DNA from: Kiritimatiellia bacterium
Lineage (GTDB): Bacteria; Verrucomicrobiota; Kiritimatiellia; RFP12; UBA1067
Assembly: GCA_017525225.1 (NCBI GenBank)
Contig: JAFXTB010000050.1
Location: forward strand, 1 to 34,719
DNA length: 34,719 nucleotides
Direction: 5' to 3'
Positions 19,024-31,282 of the stretch are shown here, piece after piece; position 1 is the stretch's first letter, and every line of letters starts with the position of its first letter. The notes beneath the pieces were generated by a model. The model made no database searches. It saw only the letters and a list, made by a program, of their open reading frames with translations, and was not told the origin of the DNA. The translations under genes were made by a program, and so were the position numbers.

Positions 19024-19896
19024 ATGAATCTGGCGGTAGGTTTCTTCGACGGCGTGCATCTCGGCCACAGGGGTATACTGTCCCGGGCCGATGCGGCGCT
19101 GACCTTTCTGGAGCATCCGCTGTCGGTACTTGCACCTGAGAAGTCGCCGCCGCTCTTGATGACGCCTGAGGAGCGCCTGGTTGCCATCGCCTCCGCCCTT
19201 GACGGTTCCAACGGCATTAACGGTGTTGACCGGGTAAGGGCGCTGCCGTTCACGCGCGAACTGGCCGCGGAATTGCCGGAAAGCTTTGCGGACTGGCTAA
19301 GGCGCAGCTATCCGGGGCTTGAGACTGTCTTCTGCGGACCCAACTGGAGATTCGGCGCGGGTGGTACGGGTGATGCGGATTTCCTGCGGGCCAGGGGCTT
19401 TGCGGTGGAGACGGTCCCCATGGTGCGCCATGAAGGCGAGCCGATATCGTCCACACGCATACGCGCCGCGCTGAAGGCGGGCGACCTGCCGCTGGCGAAC
19501 GCCATGCTGGGCAGTCCCTTCCATATCTCCGGAGAGGTGGTAGCCGGCAAGGGTGAGGGACGCAGGCTCGGTTTCCCCACGATCAATGTACGCCCGGATA
19601 ATCCGAGTCTGCCGCGGCTTCTGCCTTCTGGCGTGTATGTGGTGGAGACGCAACATGGCCGTGCCGTGGCGAACTGGGGGCTTGCGCCCACGATGGGTGC
19701 GAGGGCCTGGCCAGAGCCGGTATTCGAAGTACACATCCTTGAGACATCAGTGCCCTCAGCGCCTTTAGACCGCTTGGCGGTCTCGCTGTTGGGATTCCTG
19801 CGGCCCGAAAGGCGGTTCGCCTCTATCAAGGAGCTGCGCGAACAAATTGCGGCGGATGTTTTTTCCGCTTCACATTACCATCTGAATAGGCTATAA
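19024..19896 (+). CDS. ribF: Bifunctional riboflavin kinase/FAD synthetase
   Basis: This 290-residue protein has the two RibF domains. The FMN adenylyltransferase half (about 1-155) carries GFFDGVHLGH (usually GNFDGVHLGH), FCGPNWRFGAGGTGD and SSTRIRAAL. The riboflavin kinase half (about 165-285) carries GEGRRLGFPTINV, LPSGVYVV and NWGLAPTM. It makes FMN and then FAD in the cytosol from riboflavin and ATP. The start has GAGGCAGGG upstream. It follows truB by 31 bases, the conserved truB-ribF order. Its stop codon lies within the -10 box of the next promoter, so this is probably the end of the operon begun at nusA. Confidence 0.93.
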   Translation: MNLAVGFFDGVHLGHRGILSRADAALTFLEHPLSVLAPEKSPPLLMTPEERLVAIASALDGSNGINGVDRVRALPFTRELAAELPESFADWLRRSYPGLETVFCGPNWRFGAGGTGDADFLRARGFAVETVPMVRHEGEPISSTRIRAALKAGDLPLANAMLGSPFHISGEVVAGKGEGRRLGFPTINVRPDNPSLPRLLPSGVYVVETQHGRAVANWGLAPTMGARAWPEPVFEVHILETSVPSAPLDRLAVSLLGFLRPERRFASIKELREQIAADVFSASHYHLNRL

Positions 19897-19897
19897 T
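19869..19897 (+). promoter_or_regulatory. Promoter of the pseudopilin operon, overlapping the ribF stop
   Basis: TTCACA (19869-19874), a 17-base spacer and a perfect TATAAT (19892-19897) sit at the very end of ribF; the TAA stop is inside the -10 box. Transcription would begin near 19904, about 25 bases before gspF. Confidence 0.8.
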
Positions 19898-19928
19898 AGC
19901 GGCAACCAAACAGCAGAGGCTACATCCA

Positions 19929-21248
19929 ATGGCAACATTCCAGTACATTGCGCTTGACGGAGCCGGACAGGAGCAGCGCGGAACGATAGAGGCGGGCGAC
20001 CGCGCGGCGGCCATCGCGGCCATCCGTGCGCACGGTCTATTCCCGAGTGCGCTTGGCGAGGTCAAGAGCAGTTCCGCGGCGAAGGCCGCCAAGCCTGCGA
20101 AGGCCGCCAAGGCCGCGAAGCCTGCCGCCAAGAAGAGTGGTCTCAACAAGGACATAAAGATCAGCTTCAAGATGCCCAAGTTCCTGATGGGCAAGGTGAA
20201 GACCAAGGACCTGACGGCCTTCACGCGCCAGCTGGCGACGCTGGTGAACGCAGGGCTTCCGCTGATGCGTTGCATAGAGGTGCTCAAGAAGCAGAAGATG
20301 GCCCCTGCGATGATGGATTGCCTCAACGGTATATCGGAGAACATCGCGGGCGGCGGCACGTTCTCGGACGCGCTCACCGCATATCCAAAGATATTCGACA
20401 ACCTATACGTGAACATGGTCAAGGCCGGCGAGGCCGGCGGCGTGCTGGAAGTCGTGCTGAACCGTCTGGCGGAGTTCGCTGAAAAGGCGCAGAAGATCAA
20501 GAACAAGGTGAAGGGCGCGATGATCTACCCGACGGTCGTGCTTGTCGCTGCGATCGGCATAACGACGTTCCTGCTTGTCACCGTGATCCCCAAGTTCCAG
20601 CAAGTGTTCAACGACCTCCTGGGCGGGCAGGCGCTGCCGGCGGTCACGCAGATGGTCATGGGGCTTTCGGACTTCGTGCAGCACAACGGCATTCAGATAG
20701 GTATCGGCGTTGCGGCGCTGGTGGTGCTATACAAGCTGTTCGGCAAGACGAAGTTCGGCTCGTACCAGCTCGACAAGATGCGCCTGTCGATGCCGGTGAC
20801 GGGTACGCTCGTCAGGCGGACGGCCATCTCGCAGGTCACGCGTACCCTCGGTACGCTGCTCGCATCCGGCGTGCCGATCCTCCAGGCGCTCATGATCGTG
20901 CGCGACACCACTGGCAACGGAGTGGTGAAGCGGGCCATCCAGAGCGTCCATGACGCTGTCAAGGAAGGCGAGTCGATGACCGACCCGCTGGCGGCGTCTG
21001 GCGTGTTTCCGCCGATGGTCGTGTCGATGGTGCAGGTAGGCGAGGAGACGGGCGCCCTCTCGGACATGCTTACGCGTGTCGCCAACACCTATGACGACGA
21101 GGTCGACAACGCCGTGGCCGGTCTTACGGCGGCGATCGAGCCGGTCCTCATCATCTTCCTCGCCGTGGTGGTCGGCACGATCGTCATCGCCATGTTCCTG
21201 CCGATGATCAAGATCATCTCCTCCGTGTCCTCCGGCGGCGCAGGCTGA
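19929..21248 (+). CDS. gspF: Type II secretion/type IV pilus inner-membrane platform protein GspF/PilC
   Basis: This 439-residue protein has the GspF/PilC layout. The N-terminal segment FQYIALDGAGQEQRGTIEA is followed by an unusual low-complexity Ala/Lys/Pro linker (about 50-75). A first T2SSF domain (about 97-215; FTRQLATLVNAGLPL, KAGEAGGVLE) ends in a membrane helix near VVLVAAIGITTFLLV. A second domain (about 299-415; TRTLGTLLASGVPILQAL, VGEETGALSDML) ends in LIIFLAVVVGTIVIAMFLP. GspF couples the cytoplasmic assembly ATPase to pseudopilin assembly. It opens the pseudopilin operon behind a strong promoter. The ATPase, secretin and prepilin peptidase are not encoded in this window. The stop codon is the first bases of a tandem repeat. 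Confidence 0.93.
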   Translation: MATFQYIALDGAGQEQRGTIEAGDRAAAIAAIRAHGLFPSALGEVKSSSAAKAAKPAKAAKAAKPAAKKSGLNKDIKISFKMPKFLMGKVKTKDLTAFTRQLATLVNAGLPLMRCIEVLKKQKMAPAMMDCLNGISENIAGGGTFSDALTAYPKIFDNLYVNMVKAGEAGGVLEVVLNRLAEFAEKAQKIKNKVKGAMIYPTVVLVAAIGITTFLLVTVIPKFQQVFNDLLGGQALPAVTQMVMGLSDFVQHNGIQIGIGVAALVVLYKLFGKTKFGSYQLDKMRLSMPVTGTLVRRTAISQVTRTLGTLLASGVPILQALMIVRDTTGNGVVKRAIQSVHDAVKEGESMTDPLAASGVFPPMVVSMVQVGEETGALSDMLTRVANTYDDEVDNAVAGLTAAIEPVLIIFLAVVVGTIVIAMFLPMIKIISSVSSGGAG

Positions 21249-21291
21249 GAAGGTTGAGAAGGTTTGGAAGGTTGAGAGTGTTGAGAAGGTG
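21247..21291 (+). repeat. 9-bp GAGAAGGTT tandem array between gspF and the first pseudopilin
   Basis: Five units: GAGAAGGTT, GAGAAGGTT, TGGAAGGTT, GAGAGTGTT and GAGAAGGTG. They begin in the gspF stop codon and end nine bases before the GTG start of the next gene. The last unit (GAGAAGG) could act as its ribosome-binding site. It is the same repeat family as at 4227-4322. Confidence 0.88.
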
Positions 21292-21300
21292 AGAATGTAG

Positions 21301-22527
21301 GTGAAAAAAGGGTTCACATTGATTGAGCTTCTGGTCGTGGTGGTCGTGATCGCCACGCTCATGGGGCTGGTGTTCCGTCTGGCGGGCGTTGGCGGAAACC
21401 AGAAGAACCGCAACATCACCATCACCAGGATGCAGAAGCTCGAGTTCGCCCTTTCCGGCTACTATGCCGCATTCGGGACGTATCCGCCCGTGCCACTCCA
21501 CGGCACGCGCGACATATTCTGCGATGTGAACGACCATGGCATACAGATGTCGTCCGGTGGTGGTTCCCAGAGTACGCGGCTTGAATGGTCACGTGTCCGG
21601 GCCGCCTGCCTCTCGCAGCCCGTCGCCTGCGAATTCCCATACAACAGCAAGTCCCAGAAGACGGATGACATGGTAAAGCTCATGAGGCAGCGGTATGCCG
21701 ATCTTGGCGACAAGTGGGCCAACTTCGCGAACTTCGACGCGCTGGACTCGGCAAGCGCGCTTTCCGGGTATGCGAGGTCGAGCGGCTGGACGGATGTGCA
21801 GGTGTTCAAGTTCGGCGTCATGTCCTTCCTCCTGCCGCGTTACCTTTTCATGTTGGCCGGTCCCAAGGAGCTTTACGACAACGAAGGCTACAATGCCCAG
21901 TGGAGGTCGCAGAACGACATTTCGCAGATCTTCCGGTTGAGGGACGGCAAGCGGCTCTATCCCAGCGGGAAATGGGAGGATCTGCAGAGGGATACCAACC
22001 AGCGCGAAAGCCGGGATTTGACATCGGCGGACTATGACAAGGCCAGCTACCGCCAAATTCTCGTACAGCCTTCGCAGACGGTGTGTGCGCGCTGGATGCA
22101 GGCGCTGGACGGCATCGTCTCCGGCGGCCAGACGTTCTACGGCGTCAATACCCGTCTGGACCACAGCGAAGAGCATGGCTACCACTACCACGAGGGCGGC
22201 GAGCTTGGTGGCGCCCCCTGGGAGATGTCCGGAATCTATGCGCCCGGCAAGGCCAGCAACAATTCTTCGGGAAGCCAGTACATTCTCGACGGCATGACGA
22301 TTCGCGATGGCTGGGGGATGGATCTTTTCTACTATTCGCCGCCACCGTACCAGAGCTATCGGGTGTGGTCGGCAGGCCCCAACCAAAAGACGATTCCGCC
22401 GTGGATCGATTTCAAGTCGCTGCAGTCGGCAGGCGCCGAGGAGGGGTCCGGCGACAAGAACGGGATGGAGACCGCCGCAAGGTGGACGGCCGATGATATC
22501 GTGGGGCTGTCGACGCCGGCGGACTAG
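21301..22527 (+). CDS. Prepilin-like protein (408 residues)
   Basis: It starts with GTG at 21301, giving MKKGFTLIELLVVVVVIATLMG: a very short leader, prepilin peptidase cleavage after Gly4, Phe+1 and Glu+5, then the hydrophobic assembly helix. The mature region is long for a pseudopilin. A C-terminal segment (about 330-370; IRDGWGMDLFYYSPP, YRVWSAGPNQKT) resembles the closing loop of GspG/GspH-type proteins (DxWG..l.Y, SAGPD). The protein would be an inner-membrane precursor assembled into a pseudopilus. It lies directly after gspF, separated by a repeat array whose last unit may serve as the ribosome-binding site. I do not recognise a specific family. Confidence 0.82.
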   Translation: MKKGFTLIELLVVVVVIATLMGLVFRLAGVGGNQKNRNITITRMQKLEFALSGYYAAFGTYPPVPLHGTRDIFCDVNDHGIQMSSGGGSQSTRLEWSRVRAACLSQPVACEFPYNSKSQKTDDMVKLMRQRYADLGDKWANFANFDALDSASALSGYARSSGWTDVQVFKFGVMSFLLPRYLFMLAGPKELYDNEGYNAQWRSQNDISQIFRLRDGKRLYPSGKWEDLQRDTNQRESRDLTSADYDKASYRQILVQPSQTVCARWMQALDGIVSGGQTFYGVNTRLDHSEEHGYHYHEGGELGGAPWEMSGIYAPGKASNNSSGSQYILDGMTIRDGWGMDLFYYSPPPYQSYRVWSAGPNQKTIPPWIDFKSLQSAGAEEGSGDKNGMETAARWTADDIVGLSTPAD

Positions 22528-22532
22528 GGAAT

Positions 22533-22572
22533 GTTGAAAGGTTGAAAAGTTGAAAAGTTGAAGGTTTGAAAG
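22533..22572 (+). repeat. Diverged 8-bp GTTGAAA(A/G) tandem array
   Basis: Five octamers (GTTGAAAG, GTTGAAAA, GTTGAAAA, GTTGAAGG, TTTGAAAG) fill the gap between two pseudopilin genes. The GGTTGA core is shared with the 9-bp arrays, but the unit is one base shorter. Confidence 0.8.
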
Positions 22573-22574
22573 AG

Positions 22575-23231
22575 ATGAGAAAGAAGTTGAAAGAGGGTTT
22601 CACGCTTGTGGAGATGCTGGTGGTGATGGGCATCATAGCGGTGCTTTCCGGTTCGCTCATCATCGGCATGGGGCGTATCCGTAAGTCCGCGCAGCGCGCC
22701 AAGGCGCAGGAGACGGTGTCGAACACCGCCGCCGCGCTCGGCATAATCTTCCAGACCGAGATGAACTGGCCGAAGATTCTAGTCAACAACAACAACAAGC
22801 AGCTTGATGCGCGAACGAGCCATGTGTTCGTGCGGTTCAAGCTTCTGGGCCTTTCGTACGATTCGAAGACGTACAGCCATGCGACGCACAAGGGGACGAT
22901 CAAGCTCACCGGCTCCGATCGGTGCGGTGTCGTGGATCCATGGGCCTTGACTACGCTCAAGCGCAACAATTCCGCCGCGGAAGGTGATGGCGAGGAACTG
23001 AAGGTCGATACCGGCGGAACGGTCAAGGACCACATCCTCTGGTACGCCATCGATGTCGACGGCGACGGCATCACGGAAGCGTCCGTCAACGGCGAGACCG
23101 TTAAAGTACGCGCGCCCGCATGCGTATGGTGCGCCGGGGCGGACGGCGTCCTCGGGCCCTACAAGGGCAAGCGCACGAAGGCTGCCGACGACGATGTCTA
23201 CAGTTGGGCGCGCGGACAGGAGGTGGAATGA
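22575..23231 (+). CDS. Prepilin-like protein (218 residues)
   Basis: The ATG at 22575 gives MRKKLKEGFTLVEMLVVMGIIAV: basic leader, Gly-Phe cleavage site and Glu+5, then the assembly helix. An in-frame TTG three codons upstream lies in the repeat and is less likely. The mature part ends with GADGVLG ... DDDVYSWARG, like the Asp-rich calcium-binding C-terminal loop of GspG-type pseudopilins (DG..G..DDI.SW). Four consecutive Asn codons occur near the middle. It overlaps the next pseudopilin by four bases (ATGA), showing translational coupling inside the operon. Confidence 0.85.
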   Translation: MRKKLKEGFTLVEMLVVMGIIAVLSGSLIIGMGRIRKSAQRAKAQETVSNTAAALGIIFQTEMNWPKILVNNNNKQLDARTSHVFVRFKLLGLSYDSKTYSHATHKGTIKLTGSDRCGVVDPWALTTLKRNNSAAEGDGEELKVDTGGTVKDHILWYAIDVDGDGITEASVNGETVKVRAPACVWCAGADGVLGPYKGKRTKAADDDVYSWARGQEVE

Positions 23232-23872
23232 TGCGCAGGCGTGGTTTCACCATAGTTGAGATGCTGATGGTGATCGCGGTGCTCGGCATACTGCTGGGCA
23301 TCGTCACGACCGCGGCCAGCACCGCCATCCGCCAGGCGCGCGTCAAGCGCGCCGCCGCCATGCGCACCGTGCTGCAGGCGGGACTTGCCACCTACTACGC
23401 CCAGAAGGGCGAATGGCCGGGGCAGCTCAAGAGCTGGTGCGATAACGGACCCGACCGCCAGAATCTGCGCGTGGACTATCTCTCCGATTCGCAGGCCGAC
23501 AAGGTGTTCCAGGAACTTGTGGAGGAATCGGTCAAGAGAAGCCAGATGCTGGATGTCTCCGGGCTTTTCGTCGCCGAGGCGGCGAAGGTGAACGGAAAGG
23601 ACTCCAAGACCCAGGGTATGGACTTCCGTGCGGCGAAGCTCGCGACGAAGAAGCGCGGGAAGCTCTCCACGAGCCAGCTCGCGTTCGGCTACTCGGAGAA
23701 GAAGACCGGTTTCTTCCGGCGCTACATAATCAAGTACAATTTCGAAACCGACTCCGTGACAGTGATGACCCAGGACGAAAGCGACTCCAGTGACGACTAC
23801 GCGAAGGAGATGGACCTCAGGCACAGCGGCCAGGGCATAAGATGGCCCAACAAACCGAACGATGGCGTATGA
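23228..23872 (+). CDS. Prepilin-like protein (214 residues)
   Basis: Two adjacent ATGs (23228, 23231) are possible. AGGAGG sits 4 and 7 bases ahead respectively, so 23231 may be the real initiator. The N-terminus RRRGFTIVEMLMVIAVLGILLGIV has the prepilin cleavage glycine, Phe+1 and Glu+5. AMRTVLQAGLATYYAQKGEWP follows, typical of GspG/GspH-like proteins. The rest of the mature region is rich in Lys and lacks an obvious calcium loop. It overlaps the preceding and following pseudopilin genes, consistent with a coupled operon. No finer family assignment. Confidence 0.83.
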   Translation: MMRRRGFTIVEMLMVIAVLGILLGIVTTAASTAIRQARVKRAAAMRTVLQAGLATYYAQKGEWPGQLKSWCDNGPDRQNLRVDYLSDSQADKVFQELVEESVKRSQMLDVSGLFVAEAAKVNGKDSKTQGMDFRAAKLATKKRGKLSTSQLAFGYSEKKTGFFRRYIIKYNFETDSVTVMTQDESDSSDDYAKEMDLRHSGQGIRWPNKPNDGV

Positions 23873-24755
23873 CGGCATGAAAGGCAGGAAATCCATACTC
23901 GGCTTCACGCTCATCGAATTGCTTGTCACGATGGGCCTGATGGCGCTTCTCGCGACGGTGGCGATAGGCGGCTACTATTCGGCTGTGCGCGGCATGACGG
24001 AGCGCGGTGTGAAGCAGGACGTCATCTCCTTCATCCGCCTGGCCCAGCAGCGCGCGCTCGTGGACCAGGTGCCCACGGCGGTATTCTTCATGAACCGCAA
24101 GCTTGCGGAGGAGGACCTCGATACGGGCGAGGCGGAGCGTATTGTCGGCATTGCCGTCGCCGTGCGCACCGTCGGCCGGGTGGGGTATGTGAAGGGTGAC
24201 CTGATTGCCGACGAGTATGGCGATCTTGACAAGACCTTCCCCACGAACGGGGCGAATACCAGGTCGAGTATGCGGCTTTACAGGATGGTGGACGCTTCGA
24301 GCGTGGAGGCCTGCTTCTCTACCGTGCGTGACCATGTCGTACGGTGCTCGCTGGACACGGAGGAGCTTTTCGGCGCCAATCTGCTGGGCGGGAAATCGGT
24401 CACGCTCCCCGACAGCACGACGTTCAGCGCCAATGCGCTCAACATCTGGGCGTTCCAGAAAATATCTGGCGACGGCAATGCGAACTGGCGCGTCGGCGAC
24501 CCGTACGGGGCGGAGATCGCCTCGCTCCAGCTGCCGCACGGGTACGTGTTCGGGAATTCCGTGCCGACTAAGGTTGGCGAGACGACGGGCGCCAGTGCCC
24601 CGTGCTTCTTCGACCCCGAAAGGCTCGGCGCGCTGGACTACCAGGGAAGCCAGTTCGAGTTCAACGGCGTGGAGATCCGCGTGCGCCGGCCTGGCAAGGA
24701 TTCGCTCGAACGAGTGGACACAATTTCGAAGAGCGACCTGAACGACAACAAGTGA
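23862..24755 (+). CDS. Prepilin-like protein resembling Verru_Chthon cassette protein D
   Basis: Up to 297 residues; the start is at 23862 (11-base overlap with the upstream gene) or at the ATG at 23877, and neither has a good ribosome-binding site. GFTLIELLVTMGLMALLATVAIG is a prepilin signal with Glu+5. The following stretch, VKQDVISFIRLAQQRALVDQVPTAVFFM, is reminiscent of GspH-type minor pseudopilins and of the family I remember as Verru_Chthon cassette protein D. It is the first of three such genes in a row (D, B, C order) before the large A-like gene. Predicted to be a minor subunit of a pseudopilus. The prepilin call is secure; the cassette assignment is from memory. Confidence 0.78.
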   Translation: MAYDGMKGRKSILGFTLIELLVTMGLMALLATVAIGGYYSAVRGMTERGVKQDVISFIRLAQQRALVDQVPTAVFFMNRKLAEEDLDTGEAERIVGIAVAVRTVGRVGYVKGDLIADEYGDLDKTFPTNGANTRSSMRLYRMVDASSVEACFSTVRDHVVRCSLDTEELFGANLLGGKSVTLPDSTTFSANALNIWAFQKISGDGNANWRVGDPYGAEIASLQLPHGYVFGNSVPTKVGETTGASAPCFFDPERLGALDYQGSQFEFNGVEIRVRRPGKDSLERVDTISKSDLNDNK

Positions 24756-24773
24756 CGAGGCTTTTTCCGGACT

Positions 24774-25412
24774 ATGGCAATCTTCCAACATAGACGCGGC
24801 TTTACGCTGATGGAGGTGAATCTCGCCATCTTCATCATGGCGGTGGCGGTGCTGGGCATGGTGGCCCTCTACCCGCTCGGCTTCCGCGAAAGCCAGCATT
24901 CGCGCGATGATATCGTGGAGGCGGCGGTTGCGGACGGCATCCTGAACCCGCTTGCGGCGGCGCTTTCGACCTGCGGCTCGAATATGACGTGGCAGGCGTG
25001 GAAGCAGATCGTGGGATCTTCAGGCGGCGCGCTCCAGCCCGCGAACGGCTGGTCGGACTACTGCAACGGCGACGCCTTCACGCCCAGGACGAAGTCCCAG
25101 GTGAACGTGCAGACGCGTGCCGTGATCCAGCGCATAGCAGATGCGTACAAGGGCGACGGCAATCCCGCCTCCGACGCGCTCGCGGTCCTCAACAACTGCG
25201 GGCTTGCATGCGCGCTCGTCCTCTCGCAGGGTGAGCTGCCCACGTTTGGAAACGCCGGCGGGAATAACGGGTTCTACCTCTACGACCATTCGCGCATCGT
25301 GCTGACGCTCCGGCTGTCGCGCCGGGCGGCGCAGCTTTTCGAGCAGCCTGCCTTCTATACGGAAGTGCATTACCAGGGCGATCCCAACTATGGGGGGGGG
25401 ACAGGGCCATGA
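24774..25412 (+). CDS. Prepilin-like protein resembling Verru_Chthon cassette protein B
   Basis: This encodes 212 residues. RRGFTLMEVNLAIFIMAVAVLGMVALYPLGFRESQHS combines a prepilin site (Gly-Phe, Glu+5) with a hydrophobic helix that ends in LYPLGFRES. That LLPLGL-like end after the helix is the trait I associate with GspI/PilV-like minor pilins and with Verru_Chthon cassette protein B. Near the 3' end the gene holds an uninterrupted run of nine G (25392-25400), encoding part of YGGGTGP. It overlaps the next gene by four bases. Slippage in the run would change the C-terminus and disturb coupling to the downstream gene. Confidence 0.78.
   Translation: MAIFQHRRGFTLMEVNLAIFIMAVAVLGMVALYPLGFRESQHSRDDIVEAAVADGILNPLAAALSTCGSNMTWQAWKQIVGSSGGALQPANGWSDYCNGDAFTPRTKSQVNVQTRAVIQRIADAYKGDGNPASDALAVLNNCGLACALVLSQGELPTFGNAGGNNGFYLYDHSRIVLTLRLSRRAAQLFEQPAFYTEVHYQGDPNYGGGTGP
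25392..25400 (+). repeat. G9 homopolymer at the 3' end of a pseudopilin gene
   Basis: Nine consecutive G bases lie 12 bases before the stop codon and eight bases before the start of the next pseudopilin gene. Such runs are prone to slipped-strand length change. Confidence 0.9.
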
Positions 25413-25906
25413 AGCGCGGTGGTTTCACCCTTGTCGAGGTGCTGGTGGCGTCGCTGCTCCTCAGCATGCTCGTCGTAATCCTGACGATGGTGTTCAACCA
25501 GTCGTCCATTGCCTGGCGCACCGGCAAGGCCAGCGTGGCGCAGCTGGACAAGACCCGTCGCCATCTCTCGCAGATCCAGCGCCAGGCGGACGATGTCCTT
25601 CCCGGAGTGCAGCCAGGCGGCGTCGCCCTGGGCAGGGTCGTAAGCGCCTGGAAGCAGCATGACTGGAACGGTTCTCCGGGCTCGCTCCGCAAACGTGCGG
25701 TGGAGCAGCTGGGTTCAACCGAGCTTACGGTCGGCGAGATAAATCCCGTCGCAAACGACAAGGGCTGGTCGCGGCCAACCATCAACTTCAACTATTTCGG
25801 GCTTGGATCCCTCAACCCGTATACCGTGGGCGTGTGGTCGTACGGGCCGGACGGCAAGCCCGACACCGAGGATGACATTTCCTCCTGGCCGGATGACATG
25901 GAGTGA
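25409..25906 (+). CDS. Prepilin-like protein resembling Verru_Chthon cassette protein C
   Basis: This 165-residue protein starts MKRGGFTLVEVLVASLLLSMLVVILTMVFNQSS, with a prepilin site and Glu+5. IAWRTGKASVAQLDKTRRHLSQIQRQADDVLPG follows, the GspJ/PilW-like pattern (helix, then N-x-S/T, W, charged helix, LxQ) that I associate with Verru_Chthon cassette protein C. The C-terminus SYGPDGKPDTEDDISSWPD looks like an Asp-rich calcium-binding loop as in GspG. It is shorter than I would expect for a full-length C protein, so it may be a compact form. It starts inside the stop of the previous gene and ends three bases before the next. Confidence 0.78.
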   Translation: MKRGGFTLVEVLVASLLLSMLVVILTMVFNQSSIAWRTGKASVAQLDKTRRHLSQIQRQADDVLPGVQPGGVALGRVVSAWKQHDWNGSPGSLRKRAVEQLGSTELTVGEINPVANDKGWSRPTINFNYFGLGSLNPYTVGVWSYGPDGKPDTEDDISSWPDDME

Positions 25907-25909
25907 GCC

Positions 25910-26392
25910 ATGAGAACCATGAAAAAAGGTTTCACGCTTGTAGAGCTGCTTGTGGTGATCGCGATGCTCATGATGCTGATGGGCTCCGTGACGAGCGCGC
26001 TCATGAACGCGCGCAGGCGCTCGAAGATAGCAAAGGCCACGGCGGCATGCCAGGAGATGACGAACGCGATCCTCGCATACGAGAACTACGCGCGCGACTA
26101 TTCGCTCGAAAGCAAGGCCACGGGCGACTCGTGGAAGGAGGCCACGAAGACCGATCTAGCCTTCATCCTTGGGGAGGAGAACATCCAGCAGGGGCAGGGG
26201 AGCGGAAAGATACCCGTGCTCTACAACGCCGAGTTCAAGGGCACGACGTTCCTCGATCCGTGGGGCAATCCATACTGGTATCGTATCAAGAAGGGGAGCG
26301 GCGGGCAGATTAGGAGCGAGAGCGCGTCCACGATAAACACATGCGTCATGTATCCCAACTACAACCGCCGCCGCGCGGGGGAGGTGTACTGA
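25910..26392 (+). CDS. Major-pseudopilin-like protein (GspG type)
   Basis: This encodes 160 residues, with starts at 25910 or, nine bases later, MKKG. KKGFTLVELLVVIAMLMMLMGSV is a classical prepilin signal with Glu+5. KIAKATAACQEMTNAILAYENYARDY and the diagnostic FLDPWGNPYWYRIKK (PxDPWGxPY) mark a GspG-type fold, the main fibre subunit of type II pseudopili. The usual C-terminal calcium loop (DDI.NW) is not evident here but is present in two neighbouring pseudopilins. Its stop overlaps the ATG of the giant A-like gene by one base. The GspG relationship is well supported; whether it is the most abundant subunit is unknown. Confidence 0.85.
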   Translation: MRTMKKGFTLVELLVVIAMLMMLMGSVTSALMNARRRSKIAKATAACQEMTNAILAYENYARDYSLESKATGDSWKEATKTDLAFILGEENIQQGQGSGKIPVLYNAEFKGTTFLDPWGNPYWYRIKKGSGGQIRSESASTINTCVMYPNYNRRRAGEVY

Positions 26393-29300
26393 TGGGGAAC
26401 AGACGTGGCAGCGCACTTCTGATCGTACTGGGCTTTCTCTCCTTCATGGTGGTGAGCGCCGTGGCGTTTTCCATCTACATGCGCTCCGAGCGCGTGCCTT
26501 CCTCCGTGTTCCGACGGAGCGTTTCGGTAAGGCATCTCGTGAAGGCGGGTCTCGCACATGCTATCGCCGAGCTTGACGACGCCATCCGCGGCGATCCGTA
26601 CCCGGGGATGCACAACGATAACTCGCTCAGGGCGAACCAGAATTTCTCCAGCGGAGAGTCGCATTATGCGGATACCTGGCTTGGACGCGTGTTCATGCCG
26701 CCGAATCCCGACGATGAGAACGATGGCAGCTACATGGCCCCTGGGGGCGAGACGGTATCCGTCCTGAATCTCGAAGGGCTGGGCTACGTGCCGCCGCCGC
26801 TTGTCAACGACGTCCGGTTCCTGAGCCGCCGCAGCTGGGCCGCGAAATGGCGCAACTTCGACTATGGTGCCGGGCGCTTCGCCTACTGCGCGGTCAACGT
26901 GTCGGACTACTTCGACATCAACCGGCTTCCGGCGGACGAGCCGAGAAGCTCTGCGCAGCGGATCAACCTTTCCTCGCTTTTCGCCGACGATTTCAAGAGT
27001 CAGAACAATGGCGTCTCGGACGCTGGGACGTTCCGCGATTTCGTCAGGACGCGCGGTGGCACGCAGTCGTCGTGGCCGTTCGTCTCGATGCTCGACTACA
27101 CTCTCGCGATGCGTAGCGGCGCGGGCGGTTTCGAGTCGCCCTACTACCGCTGGATCGGCAGCAGTTCTTCGGGGGTGATGTATCAGGGCGTGGACGACGA
27201 TGCGAAGGAACAGGTGTTCGTTACGGATTCGTGGATGCCGGAGGAGCCGAACGACGGACTTGCGGAATCGGCGATCATAGACCTGAACGATCGTGGCTCT
27301 GGGAATAGTCAGGATGCGCATAGCGGCCAGCCGTTCCCGTCTGCCTGGATGCAGGACGGCAATTCGAAATCACTCCAGGATGTGAAAAACTCGTCCAATT
27401 CGGACTTCATAAAGCGCGTCGCATCCGGGAACCTTCCAAGTGGCAGTTCGCTTGGCGGCGGGCAGAACAGGTCGCTCAACTATACCGACGCCGCGATGCT
27501 CAAGGACTATCTCGATCGGGACGACACGCCGACATCCCTTGCGCTTCCATGCGTGGAGCGCGTTCCGATGGCGGCCTCGCTCGGCATTTCGCGTCTTACG
27601 ATCAACCTCGGCCTTGTAGGTTCGACCCGGGTGGATGGCCCGACCCCGGGACCTGGCGGCACGAGTATCACCACTACATACACGGAGTTCAAGCCCAACC
27701 CGTCCATGTTCGGACCGGGAAATGTAGTGTCGGTCGGCGTAGTGTTTCCGTTCAAGCGCGCCAGGGAGATAAACCAGACTTTCAAGGCAAAGGCGATCAT
27801 GCGGGTGTTCCTTATCGAAGAGGGATCGACGGGGCTTCGTTTCAACGGGACGACGCTCGCGAACATGCGTCCTTCGGGCGATCTTGCCAGCTCCGAATGG
27901 AATACGGGTTCTTCGTTCACGCTTCCCGGAACCGCCGGCTCCGCCCCTTTCGTGTTCACGATGGTTTCCAGGGAGGAAAGCATAAATACCGGAGGCGGCG
28001 ACATTCTTGAACAGGAGGATGTCGCGGTCGGCAGTAACAACGGTTCCGTGACTTTCGAATTCGACCCCCCATCTGGTTTCGATGGTCAGATCGTGTTTAC
28101 CCAGAAGGTTGAAGCACATACGGCGGCCGCTACGCCTGCGGCTCCGTCCCCCACCCCCACACCCCAGCCGCCGGAGTACTGCTTCAATGTTTCGCCTTTC
28201 GGGGCGGACGGCAGTATGTTGGAGCCCAATGCGGCCACATGGTACAATGAGACGGACTTTGCCGCAAAATACGGCACAAGGAAATTCTCTCTCCATGCAG
28301 CAGTCTGGGTGTGTATCTTTGCGTCAAACGGAGATGTGGTCGATCTGGTGCCTGCGACAGGGGCGGATGACAACCAGTACAACGGAATCGACGGCAATCT
28401 CGTGCAGATGCAGGGTTATGATGGCGTCAATGGAGCCGGCATGCCGATATTCCGGTTCCGCATGGCCAATTCGACCATATATGACGTGGCCAACCAGTCG
28501 TCCCCCCTAAACATACCTGCGGGCGCCTGGACGCCGGGTGCGTACTGCGTGGTCGATCCTCGTTTCAACTGGGCGCCGGAAAACTGGATTCCGCGTGATG
28601 CCGTCGTGACAGGCGATGATTGGGTTAAATGGGTGACGGGTAGGACGCCTGCCAACGATACGGACACCCTGCTGGCCGATAACGGTCGCGATTCGGATAT
28701 ATTTATGTTCGTCTCGAACCAGGGGTTCCTGCAATCCATGGGCGAGCTCGCATTCCTCCCATTCCTCACCGACTTCGGAAACCAGACGGTCCAGGGCTCC
28801 ACTTCGTTATCGGATCTCCTGCGCGCATGCTGCATGAACTTCAATGGTACGGAATACGCGACGTCCGACCCCTGGACCAGGATCCCCTGTGCCGATATAG
28901 TTTGGCGTACGTACCGTCCGTACAGATCCGCTTCCAACTCCAACAACTCGCAGTATCTGCTTTCGTTCCTCAACTTCTATGGCGGCGGTAATCCGGCTTC
29001 GTCCCATGCGTTCAGGGATATGGGCGTTCGTGGTACACGTGTCAATCCCTACACCGACAACGAGAACGTCCGCATGGCGGCGTTTGCATATACGCCGTAC
29101 GACTGGTGGGCTGCGGCGGGGACGAACACCGTGGGCTCTTCGTCCAATTCCAGCGATTCGGAGGGTACAAGAAGGGGCAGGTTCGGGAATCTCTCCAGCA
29201 GCCGCAAGTACACGTTCCATGAGAATTCCTCGGAAGCGAAGATGAAGGACGAGGAGATACGGGCCTTGGGCAACGCCATCTGCAACGAGATCCGGAACCA

Positions 29301-29691
29301 GGCCGGATCTGACTGGCAAACGGTATACGACAACCTCGACTGGTACGGCAACAATTCCATCGATCCCGACAACGAGGATTCGTTCAGGGATTTTCTCGGC
29401 GTGCGGCTTGATGAGCCCCTCCACGGCGTGGACCGCAAGTTCCTCTACGCCTATTGGCGTGGATGCCTCGCCAACCGCCAGCAGTTGTTCCTCGTGTTCG
29501 TCCGCGCGGAATCCATGGCGCTTGGCGGCTCGGGCGGTGGACAGATCCCGCCGCAGCAGGGTGGACGCGCCGTGGCGCTCGTGTGGCGTGATCCGAAGGC
29601 TCCGTCGGGCAGTTCGGAAACGGCAACCACTGGAGCCGATAGCCGCAAGCCGCACCGCACGCGCGTTCTCTTCTACCACCAGTTCGACTGA
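26392..29691 (+). CDS. Giant GspK/PilX-like protein resembling Verru_Chthon cassette protein A
   Basis: This encodes 1099 residues from the ATG at 26392, with GGGGGAGG upstream. The N-terminus NRRGSALLIVLGFLSFMVVSAVAFSIYMRSERV has a prepilin-like Gly cleavage point and assembly helix but no Glu at +5, as in GspK/PilX tip subunits. SVSVRHLVKAGLAHAIAELD follows. The very large exported part contains FDINRLPADEPRS, a Pro/Thr linker (about 580-595) and a Ser/Asn-rich region. Length, N-terminus and company of three prepilin-like neighbours match what I remember of Verru_Chthon cassette protein A. It probably caps or decorates the pseudopilus; no enzymatic domain is recognised. It is the largest gene of the window. 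Confidence 0.75.
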   Translation: MGNRRGSALLIVLGFLSFMVVSAVAFSIYMRSERVPSSVFRRSVSVRHLVKAGLAHAIAELDDAIRGDPYPGMHNDNSLRANQNFSSGESHYADTWLGRVFMPPNPDDENDGSYMAPGGETVSVLNLEGLGYVPPPLVNDVRFLSRRSWAAKWRNFDYGAGRFAYCAVNVSDYFDINRLPADEPRSSAQRINLSSLFADDFKSQNNGVSDAGTFRDFVRTRGGTQSSWPFVSMLDYTLAMRSGAGGFESPYYRWIGSSSSGVMYQGVDDDAKEQVFVTDSWMPEEPNDGLAESAIIDLNDRGSGNSQDAHSGQPFPSAWMQDGNSKSLQDVKNSSNSDFIKRVASGNLPSGSSLGGGQNRSLNYTDAAMLKDYLDRDDTPTSLALPCVERVPMAASLGISRLTINLGLVGSTRVDGPTPGPGGTSITTTYTEFKPNPSMFGPGNVVSVGVVFPFKRAREINQTFKAKAIMRVFLIEEGSTGLRFNGTTLANMRPSGDLASSEWNTGSSFTLPGTAGSAPFVFTMVSREESINTGGGDILEQEDVAVGSNNGSVTFEFDPPSGFDGQIVFTQKVEAHTAAATPAAPSPTPTPQPPEYCFNVSPFGADGSMLEPNAATWYNETDFAAKYGTRKFSLHAAVWVCIFASNGDVVDLVPATGADDNQYNGIDGNLVQMQGYDGVNGAGMPIFRFRMANSTIYDVANQSSPLNIPAGAWTPGAYCVVDPRFNWAPENWIPRDAVVTGDDWVKWVTGRTPANDTDTLLADNGRDSDIFMFVSNQGFLQSMGELAFLPFLTDFGNQTVQGSTSLSDLLRACCMNFNGTEYATSDPWTRIPCADIVWRTYRPYRSASNSNNSQYLLSFLNFYGGGNPASSHAFRDMGVRGTRVNPYTDNENVRMAAFAYTPYDWWAAAGTNTVGSSSNSSDSEGTRRGRFGNLSSSRKYTFHENSSEAKMKDEEIRALGNAICNEIRNQAGSDWQTVYDNLDWYGNNSIDPDNEDSFRDFLGVRLDEPLHGVDRKFLYAYWRGCLANRQQLFLVFVRAESMALGGSGGGQIPPQQGGRAVALVWRDPKAPSGSSETATTGADSRKPHRTRVLFYHQFD

Positions 29692-29708
29692 TCCACAGGA
29701 GGTATAAC

Positions 29709-30701
29709 ATGGTTTTCCGTCTGTCGCAACCCTGCCGCCGCGGCGGCTTCACGCTTATTGAGCTACTTGTCGTGATTGGCATCATCGGCATCCTTTCCGC
29801 CGTGATGCTCAGCACGTTCGGTGGCGCCTCCGAATCGGCGCAGGCCGCGAAGTGTATGACGAACATGCGTACCCTTTCATCCGCCGTATATACTGCGGCA
29901 TCCGCCAACGACGACGGCCATTTCCCGGCGGCCAATTCCTTCGAGTATTTCGATTCTGCCAGCATCGCGTACAGGTCCGGGTGGGTCGGCTGGCAGAACA
30001 AGGTGTCCGATGCGTATAAGAATCGGAACAGGAAGACGGAGTCGCTCGTCCAGTATGCGTGGACGTCCTTCGCCACTTATCCGCAAGGCAACAGAGGCGA
30101 GTCTGACAAGTCGAAAGTCGCCCTTTCGACAGGTGCGATATGGCAGTATGTGGGCCGTACGGCTGAGGTGTACACCTGCCCCGTCCATGTGAAGGCATGC
30201 CGCGCCCAGGATCTCATACCGACATGGAGCTATGTGATGAATTCGCTTTTCGGCTACGACGACAAGAAGGGCAAGACGACCAGATGGCAGGCCAAGAGCC
30301 TTTCCGGGGTCACTTCCGTGAACGGGGTGCCGCTTGGTGCCGACAAGGTTCTCCTTTTCGCAGAACTACCGTTCAAGGACTGGTCAAAGGAGAGGACGGT
30401 CGATATCCAGAAAGGAGTCCGGCTCGAAGGTTCGGACGCCGAATTCGACAGCGCCCTCCAGTATGACGACGGCAAATGGTCGAAGCCAGAATCCATCGGG
30501 TTCAACCATAAGAGCGGCAAGAGGGTCCTTGCACATGTCGCGTATGCCGATGGCCATGTGGCGAAGCTATTCCTGCCCAAGAATGCAAGCGAGGGTGATG
30601 TCAGGAACCTCACAGTCTGGCTTTGCCAGGGCGACGAGATTTCGTTCGACGGCAGCCGCTACGAGCGTGTGAGCCAGGCGGACAGCAGGACGAAGAAGTG
30701 A
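29709..30701 (+). CDS. Prepilin-like protein with H-X-DG type C-terminus
   Basis: This encodes 330 residues. A textbook AGGAGG lies six bases before the ATG, the best ribosome-binding site of the cluster. RRGGFTLIELLVVIGIIGILSAVMLS is a prepilin signal with Glu+5; KCMTNMRTLSSAVYTAASANDDGHFP follows, typical of planctomycete/verrucomicrobial 'DUF1559/H-X9-DG' pilin-like proteins. Near the end, FNHKSGKRVLAHVAYADGHVAKL resembles the H-X9-DG motif but has 13 residues between His and Asp. These proteins are numerous in PVC genomes and of unknown function. The gene overlaps the next by four bases (GTGA). Confidence 0.85.
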   Translation: MVFRLSQPCRRGGFTLIELLVVIGIIGILSAVMLSTFGGASESAQAAKCMTNMRTLSSAVYTAASANDDGHFPAANSFEYFDSASIAYRSGWVGWQNKVSDAYKNRNRKTESLVQYAWTSFATYPQGNRGESDKSKVALSTGAIWQYVGRTAEVYTCPVHVKACRAQDLIPTWSYVMNSLFGYDDKKGKTTRWQAKSLSGVTSVNGVPLGADKVLLFAELPFKDWSKERTVDIQKGVRLEGSDAEFDSALQYDDGKWSKPESIGFNHKSGKRVLAHVAYADGHVAKLFLPKNASEGDVRNLTVWLCQGDEISFDGSRYERVSQADSRTKK

Positions 30702-31282
30702 ACGAAAGCCGCCTGATGGCGGCAGAAAGGCGCGGAATGGAACTTTCCGAAGAGCAGAAGCGGACGGTTGCGGAGTGGCTTGCGGCAGGTGCCGGGGTCG
30801 CCGAGATACAGAAGCGCATATCCTCCGAGTTCAACATCGACATGACGTATCTCGATGTGCGGCTTCTGGTTGCGGATCTGCCGCAGCCGGTGGAGCCCGA
30901 GACGCCAAAGGATGAACCGGCGGGACTGGAAGGGGTGGCAGGCGCGGATGGCTATGGCGAGGGCGACGAGGCCGGCGGATATCCGGCAGAAGGCGGTATG
31001 CCGTCTCCTGGCACACCCGATCTAGATCAGGCGGCGGGTGAACCGCAGGGCGAACAGGCGCCTGCGGAGCTTTCTGTCTCGGTCGATCCGCTCGCACCAC
31101 CCGGCATGATTGCCTGTGGTTCGGTGGTGTTCTCCGATGGCACGGCGGGCAAGTGGGCGCTCGACCAGATGGGGCGGCTCGGGCTTTCGGGTCTGCCCGA
31201 AGGGTATCGTCCATCGCCCGAAGACGGTGCGCAATTCCAGCCCAAGCTGCTCGCCGCCCTCCGCGCAAAGGGACTGGCGTGA
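30698..31282 (+). CDS. Unknown two-module protein
   Basis: 194 residues are predicted from GTG at 30698, which overlaps the previous stop (GTGA) behind an AGGA site; ATG codons at 30716 and 30737 are alternatives. The N-terminal module (MELSEEQKRTVAEWLAAGAGVAEIQKRISSEF, then TYLDVRLLVADL) looks like a compact helical domain, reminiscent of helix-turn-helix folds. A Pro/Glu/Gly-rich acidic linker (about 70-120) joins a C-terminal module (about 125-194; GSVVFSDGTAGKWALDQMGRLGL, GYRPSPEDGAQFQPKLLAALRAKG). There is no signal peptide, so it is probably cytoplasmic. I have the impression such proteins recur in Verrucomicrobiota but cannot name a family. It is coupled to the fumarase gene that follows (GTGA). 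Confidence 0.65.
   Translation: MNESRLMAAERRGMELSEEQKRTVAEWLAAGAGVAEIQKRISSEFNIDMTYLDVRLLVADLPQPVEPETPKDEPAGLEGVAGADGYGEGDEAGGYPAEGGMPSPGTPDLDQAAGEPQGEQAPAELSVSVDPLAPPGMIACGSVVFSDGTAGKWALDQMGRLGLSGLPEGYRPSPEDGAQFQPKLLAALRAKGLA

Follow-up and report, generated by a model that had tools for sequence, protein, structure and literature searches.

The described systems closest to the locus analysed here are the type IVa pilus (T4aP), the pseudopilus of the type II secretion system (T2SS), and the Verru_Chthon A–D proteins. The T4aP comprises the platform protein PilC, the minor pilins FimU-PilV-PilW-PilX, and a major pilin. T4aP genes usually lie in multiple loci, with the pilin genes apart (Denise et al. 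2019, PMC6668835). The T2SS pseudopilus has five positional types of subunit (G, H, I, J, and K) and a platform, and the Verru_Chthon proteins occupy D, B, C, and A positions, with a giant protein having an RG-x-AL start at position A. Our literature search found no paper on Verru_Chthon proteins and none on the GspF genes of Kiritimatiellae. Here we describe an operon of ten head-to-tail genes (positions 19929–30701) in a 34,719-nt stretch of DNA (the window) that is an entire contig (G000:C104) of the fragmented 180-contig, 4.2-Mb genome assembly of a Kiritimatiellia bacterium. The operon comprises a platform gene (F), eight prepilin genes (P1–P8), and the gene for one 1099-residue protein at the GspK position (the giant; Table 1). 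We conclude that it probably encodes PilC and the dedicated pilins of a type IV pilus (T4P)-like filament, with motors, pore, and peptidase encoded elsewhere. The locus is real, strictly conserved, and apparently undescribed, and appears to be a variant within the type IV filament superfamily rather than a system of a new category.

Open reading frames and Pfam matches confirm the gene count and coordinates given in an initial annotation made from the sequence alone, namely gspF, eight prepilins with a Gly-Phe site and Glu+5, and one GspK-like protein. Specifically, a G-F-[TS]-x-x-E prepilin site with Glu+5 is present in exactly eight proteins of the operon, Pfam N_methyl scores above its cut-off for all eight, and F matches Pfam T2SSF. 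The strong promoter proposed at the head of the operon is likewise supported: of 77 relatives, 57 have a TANAAT box within the 130 nt that precede F, as compared to 10 of 330 control stretches. The annotation overstated the packing of the genes, most of which were said to overlap by 1–11 bases; overlaps are present at four of nine junctions (1, 11, 4, and 1 nt), and the remaining five junctions are gaps of 52, 47, 18, 3, and 17 nt. As the annotation also held, no ATPase, secretin, or peptidase gene adjoins the operon in the window. Directly after P8 lies a gene for a 181-residue protein without a Pfam match (30737–31282), followed by a fumarate hydratase alpha-like gene. The 181-residue protein was considered as a member of the operon and rejected, because among the relatives only the congener L058 shares it.

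Table 1. Features of the operon in the window. E-values are for the comparisons named in each row.
Feature	Coordinates	Strand	Basis
Promoter	19869..19897	+	Sigma-70-type, TTCACA-17-TATAAT, 11/12 consensus bases
F, inner-membrane platform protein (PilC/GspF family)	19929..21248	+	PF00482, E 9e-65
P1, 408-residue GspG-like pilin with large insertion, GTG start	21301..22527	+	N_methyl; G1 profile
P2, GspG-like pilin	22575..23231	+	Class G2 profile without N-terminal helix, E 9e-10, 134 columns
P3, pilin of uncertain type, G-like N-terminal half	23231..23872	+	N_methyl; best helix-trimmed profile E 0.001
P4, GspH / Verru_Chthon D-position pilin	23862..24755	+	Position; class H profile marginal
P5, GspI / Verru_Chthon B-position pilin	24774..25412	+	Class I profile without helix, E 6e-5
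P6, GspJ / Verru_Chthon C-position pilin with GspG-type C-terminal tail	25409..25906	+	TIGR02599 N-terminal match; tail
P7, GspG-like pilin	25910..26392	+	Without helix, class G2 E 2e-12 and T2SS GspG E 8e-8
Giant, GspK / Verru_Chthon A-position protein, 1099 residues	26392..29691	+	GSALL start; class K profile; AlphaFold model
P8, H-X-DG-like pilin	29709..30701	+	N_methyl; H-X9-DG model below cut-off

The operon is conserved among relatives. A scan with F yielded 80 loci, almost all from uncultured Kiritimatiellae-type assemblies from ruminant, horse, and other guts, in which gene order, a survey proposed in the initial annotation, was scored with family profiles built in this analysis. The order F, P1 to P7, giant is the same in all 52 loci long enough to show the nine core genes, and chance is therefore excluded; P8 is next after the giant in 35 of the 52. 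The prepilin motif is retained in every pilin family of the relatives, and the GSALL[IV] start of the giant is retained in 56 of 57 loci. In the sampling to date, every member of the group has the cassette. The linkage of F to the cassette is strong, but not absolute, because F stands without the cassette behind it in 13 loci (in two of which a contig end is the reason) and the giant is found elsewhere in all 13 of those genomes. In 16 relatives, a NarL/FixJ response regulator gene is located directly 3′ of the cassette (e.g. L128:15998-16597, L076:20044-20637, and L087:18761-19366), and in two, L096 (HisKA_3; L096:10425-11774) and L100, a histidine kinase-like open reading frame likewise follows. 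Both are absent from the window; in the relatives, such neighbours fit regulated expression of a surface filament.

The small pilins were typed by profile–profile comparison after removal of the N-terminal helix, because the helix alone makes all pilins match; a reversed-alignment control reached E 0.026 at best over 96 comparisons. By this sequence measure and by C-terminal motifs, P1, P2, P6, and P7 carry GspG-type features, and the single GspG-like subunit of the initial annotation is thereby extended to several (P1, P2, and P7 by helix-trimmed profiles). In particular, P1 matches the class G1 profile at E 3e-8 and has the C-terminal motif DGWG..YYSP..WSAGPN. The AlphaFold model of P1 (pLDDT 79) aligns with Vibrio cholerae EpsG (Z 5.4, rmsd 2.3, 81 residues) at both chain ends, a fit that suggests insertion of a domain into a GspG core; the Z-score is modest and is support, not proof. 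A Foldseek search with P1 gave only E-values above 1, with EpsG rows reaching Z 5.0–5.4 when realigned. The matches of P4 are marginal, at E 0.002 for the class H profile and E 0.007 for Verru_Chthon D. P6 matches the J family in the helix alone and has lost the C-terminal domain of the C family; its tail, SYGPDG..DDI, matches the T2SS GspG profile at E 3e-8.

The giant starts with GSALLIVL and lacks Glu+5, as in GspK. Its family (50 sequences) aligns with the class-level K family, which consists of 700–1150-residue proteins of other Kiritimatiellia cassettes, over 718 columns (E 6e-46), and the match persists after removal of the N-terminus (E 6e-28; reversed control 0.52). Against canonical GspK, 57 N-terminal columns alone align (E 3e-5), and the giant does not qualify as a GspK ortholog. 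The giant is conserved in its N-terminus, residues 150–200, and the C-terminal 100 residues, and is variable in residues 400–650, a pattern expected where a variable, exposed segment is inserted into a pilin core. The AlphaFold model has a pLDDT of 79 and a pTM of 0.82. A search of solved structures with the giant profile returned no match, Foldseek returned none at E 0.001 or better among scattered beta-rich rows, and the best hit of a second structural comparison (Z 4.8, beta-sandwich region 386–737) is too weak to name a domain. A search for PilY1 in the same genome gave no match and was uninformative, since its control set also gave none.

Components of a T4P machine other than a platform are present elsewhere in the genome. 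The genome contains PilB-type ATPases on C119 and C177 (605 and 563 bits, respectively, against the PilB cut-off of 676) and the retraction ATPase PilT (457 bits against 319). Specifically, a three-gene PilB-PilT-PilB operon recurs in relatives, with no PilC in it in any relative examined, and its parts are split over contigs C119 and C177 in the window genome. C148 contains a PilO Pfam match and a PilQ-like secretin, at a locus without PilC. This secretin (L265:2360-4645) weakly matches the family of Amuc_1098, which is the secretin encoded in the Akkermansia Amuc_1098-1102 locus (NF042912; 79 bits, with a cut-off of 750). The PF00482 loci of the genome are F, the T2SS GspF, a copy on C131 beside its own PilB, and copies on three contigs that we interpret as Tad type, with no others; because each of the others is accounted for in this way, F is the sole unassigned platform. 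The C131 locus (L139:7561-15545) is a third pilus-like locus, with PilB, PilC, a TPR protein, two pilin-like genes, and a 647-residue K-like protein. A further secretin, on C6 (L145:3342-11929), has genes for an SctV/FlhA-like export protein and a short needle-like protein behind it; by eye the locus looks like type III secretion, HMM analysis having covered the secretin.

The neighbourhood of F in relatives points in the same direction. Where F stands apart from the cassette, a PilD-type peptidase gene follows it in five relatives, and a C119-type PilB gene is located 2 kb upstream of it in a sixth. A sister cassette of the relatives (G, G, I, J, giant A) forms one operon with a secretin, PilM (PF11104, PilM_2), a PilO-like protein, and a MshEN-T2SSE ATPase. 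This system (L290:368-16426, L292:3-11979, and L289, in relatives G025, G030, and G012) is a second giant-pilin machine in the family; it has a secretin, PilM, a PilN/O-like protein, an ATPase, about five pilins, and an 874–1301-residue A-type protein, and no gspF. The window operon thus shares with the T4aP a platform, Glu+5 prepilins, an H-I-J-K-position set, and distribution over several loci, with PilT, PilB-type ATPases, a PilQ-like secretin, and a PilO match in the same genome. It differs in that the putative PilC heads the pilin operon, in having several GspG-like subunits and a 1099-residue protein in the PilX/GspK position, and in that no PilA ortholog was identified.

An alternative that we consider unlikely is that the operon encodes a second, specialised T2SS-type pseudopilus, with the cassette plugging into shared GspE and GspD for a particular class of cargo. 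The GspG-type calcium-loop tails on P1, P2, and P6 and the fit of the P1 core to EpsG would suit it, as would canonical GspE and GspLMD in the genome and the scores of F, which are equal for PilC (NF052607, 397 bits) and GspF (395 bits), both under cut-off. The same genomes, however, have a separate T2SS. In relatives, the operon gspE-F-G-H-I-J-K-L-M-D is complete, separate from the cassette, and includes an F and a G-H-I-J-K set of its own; in the window genome, where the initial annotation had proposed looking for gspD and gspE, the genes are scattered over other contigs, with GspE on C133, GspF on C27, GspG, I, J, and K on C118, and GspL, M, and D on C155. The GspK-like protein of C118 matches NF037980 at E 4e-16, below cut-off. 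We rejected replacement of the genome's own T2SS pseudopilins by the window pilins, as canonical GspG and GspK are present on C118. In a tree of platform proteins, the F clade is apart from the T2SS GspF clade (support 95/87 vs 100/100), a separation whose strength is limited by long branches. Moreover, in the loci seen, the neighbours of F are PilD and PilB, with no instance of GspE or GspD, the sister cassette shares its operon with PilM, and the giant is not detectable as GspK past its 57 N-terminal columns. The operon therefore resembles a T2SS pseudopilus in its five positional types and platform, its GspG-type C-terminal motifs, and the EpsG-like core of P1, and differs in having multiple GspG-like proteins, a giant approximately three times the size of GspK, and no GspE, C, D, L, or M adjoining. 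The initial annotation had suggested a lineage-specific pseudopilus; a lineage-conserved, non-canonical pilin operon in Kiritimatiellae is what we observe, and the orphan status is what we abandon, because there is a separate T2SS and also a set of T4P-type motor and alignment proteins without a platform of its own.

Still less probable is that F and the cassette supply a pool of subunits to several machines, namely the T4P motors, the C131 PilB system, and the PilM cassette system. The separability of F from the cassette, and the absence of gspF from both the PilM-secretin-ATPase-giant operons of relatives and the PilB-PilT-PilB operon, would be consistent with such a pool, whereas the C131 PilB has its own PilC, and F is tied to its own pilins in every one of the complete loci.

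The initial annotation had likened three small pilins and the giant to Verru_Chthon D, B, C, and A. The positions are recognisable: the D-, B-, C-, and A-type genes (P4, P5, P6, and the giant) are adjacent, with P7 between C and A, and the position types are supported through class-level families, marginally for P4. Membership in the Verru_Chthon families did not hold up. The HMM search that the annotation had proposed placed no protein above cut-off: the best scores for TIGR02596, TIGR02598, and TIGR02599 are 30, 22 (P5), and 27 (P6) bits against cut-offs of 70, 51, and 256, all from N-terminal matches, and TIGR02600 has no match in the giant or in the window genome. The giant aligns with Verru_Chthon A over 64 N-terminal columns and nothing beyond (E 0.73 after trimming). 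The relation runs instead through class-level intermediates. Beyond the helix, the class-level families H and J, whose members are encoded in G-G-H-I-J-K cassettes and include the relatives of P4 and P6, match Verru_Chthon D (E 3e-10, 150 columns) and Verru_Chthon C (E 3e-8, 192 columns), respectively, and class-level K matches other members of the phylum at its C-terminal end (E 6e-8). Because of these intermediates, the window operon and Verru_Chthon A–D are, as judged from profiles, cousins within one phylum-wide kind of cassette and not one family; the window operon also differs in having gspF, GspG-like genes, and another gene order. A true Verru_Chthon cassette, to which gspF and additional pilins were joined for a special function, is thus a very improbable reading, since the shared positions, the N-terminal TIGR02598 and TIGR02599 matches, and the H and J matches are set against scores far under every cut-off, a giant unlike Verru_Chthon A past its N-terminus, and a P6 without the C-family C-terminal domain. 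In one genus of the phylum (L281-L285), solitary A-type proteins of about 1130–1385 residues occur without adjacent pilin genes.

For a T4P-like filament, the eight Gly/Ala-Phe prepilins, and probably also the giant, would be cleaved by a PilD-type peptidase encoded elsewhere. The initiating tip would consist of P4, P5, P6, and the giant, at the GspH-I-J-K positions, with the shaft below it assembled from the GspG-like subunits P1, P2, and P7, and perhaps P3 and P8. Extension and retraction would be powered by the PilB ATPases and PilT acting through F, with the filament leaving through the PilQ-type secretin, aligned by PilO-like proteins. The variable, beta-rich central region of the giant (approximately residues 390–735) would face outward at the tip, where it may serve as an adhesin or binding domain. 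Several points weigh against assignment to a T4P-like machine. The motors and pore are assigned by elimination and neighbourhood, with no direct linkage in the window genome, whose assembly is fragmented into 180 contigs. F scores equally as PilC and GspF, the branches of the platform tree are long, and the C131 platform could serve the PilB-PilT-PilB motors. PilM, PilN, and PilP are placed on C148 by position only, without Pfam matches; in a PDB search the PilM-position protein had no match, and the PilO-like protein matched PilO at E 0.04 only. The fold of the giant has no confident structural match.

Kiritimatiellae are frequent in the guts of ruminants and horses, and the present family is uncultured. 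A strictly conserved operon of pilins that includes a giant as candidate tip protein offers a concrete hypothesis for adhesion, to mucin or plant fibre, or for uptake. More tentatively, Verrucomicrobiota, and gut Kiritimatiellae in particular, may possess an undescribed branch of type IV filaments: a composite pilus in which GspG-like subunits of several types would be combined with a tip based on a 700–1700-residue GspK-position protein, whose variable outward domain may replace PilY1-type adhesins. Verru_Chthon A–D would then be one diversified offshoot of such cassettes. The kind of filament is phylum-wide, since, of 184 good genomes of the phylum, 102 encode TIGR02600-type N-termini, and is essentially unstudied; the finding offers a function for the Verru_Chthon A–D families and connects them with filaments linked to PilM and a secretin.

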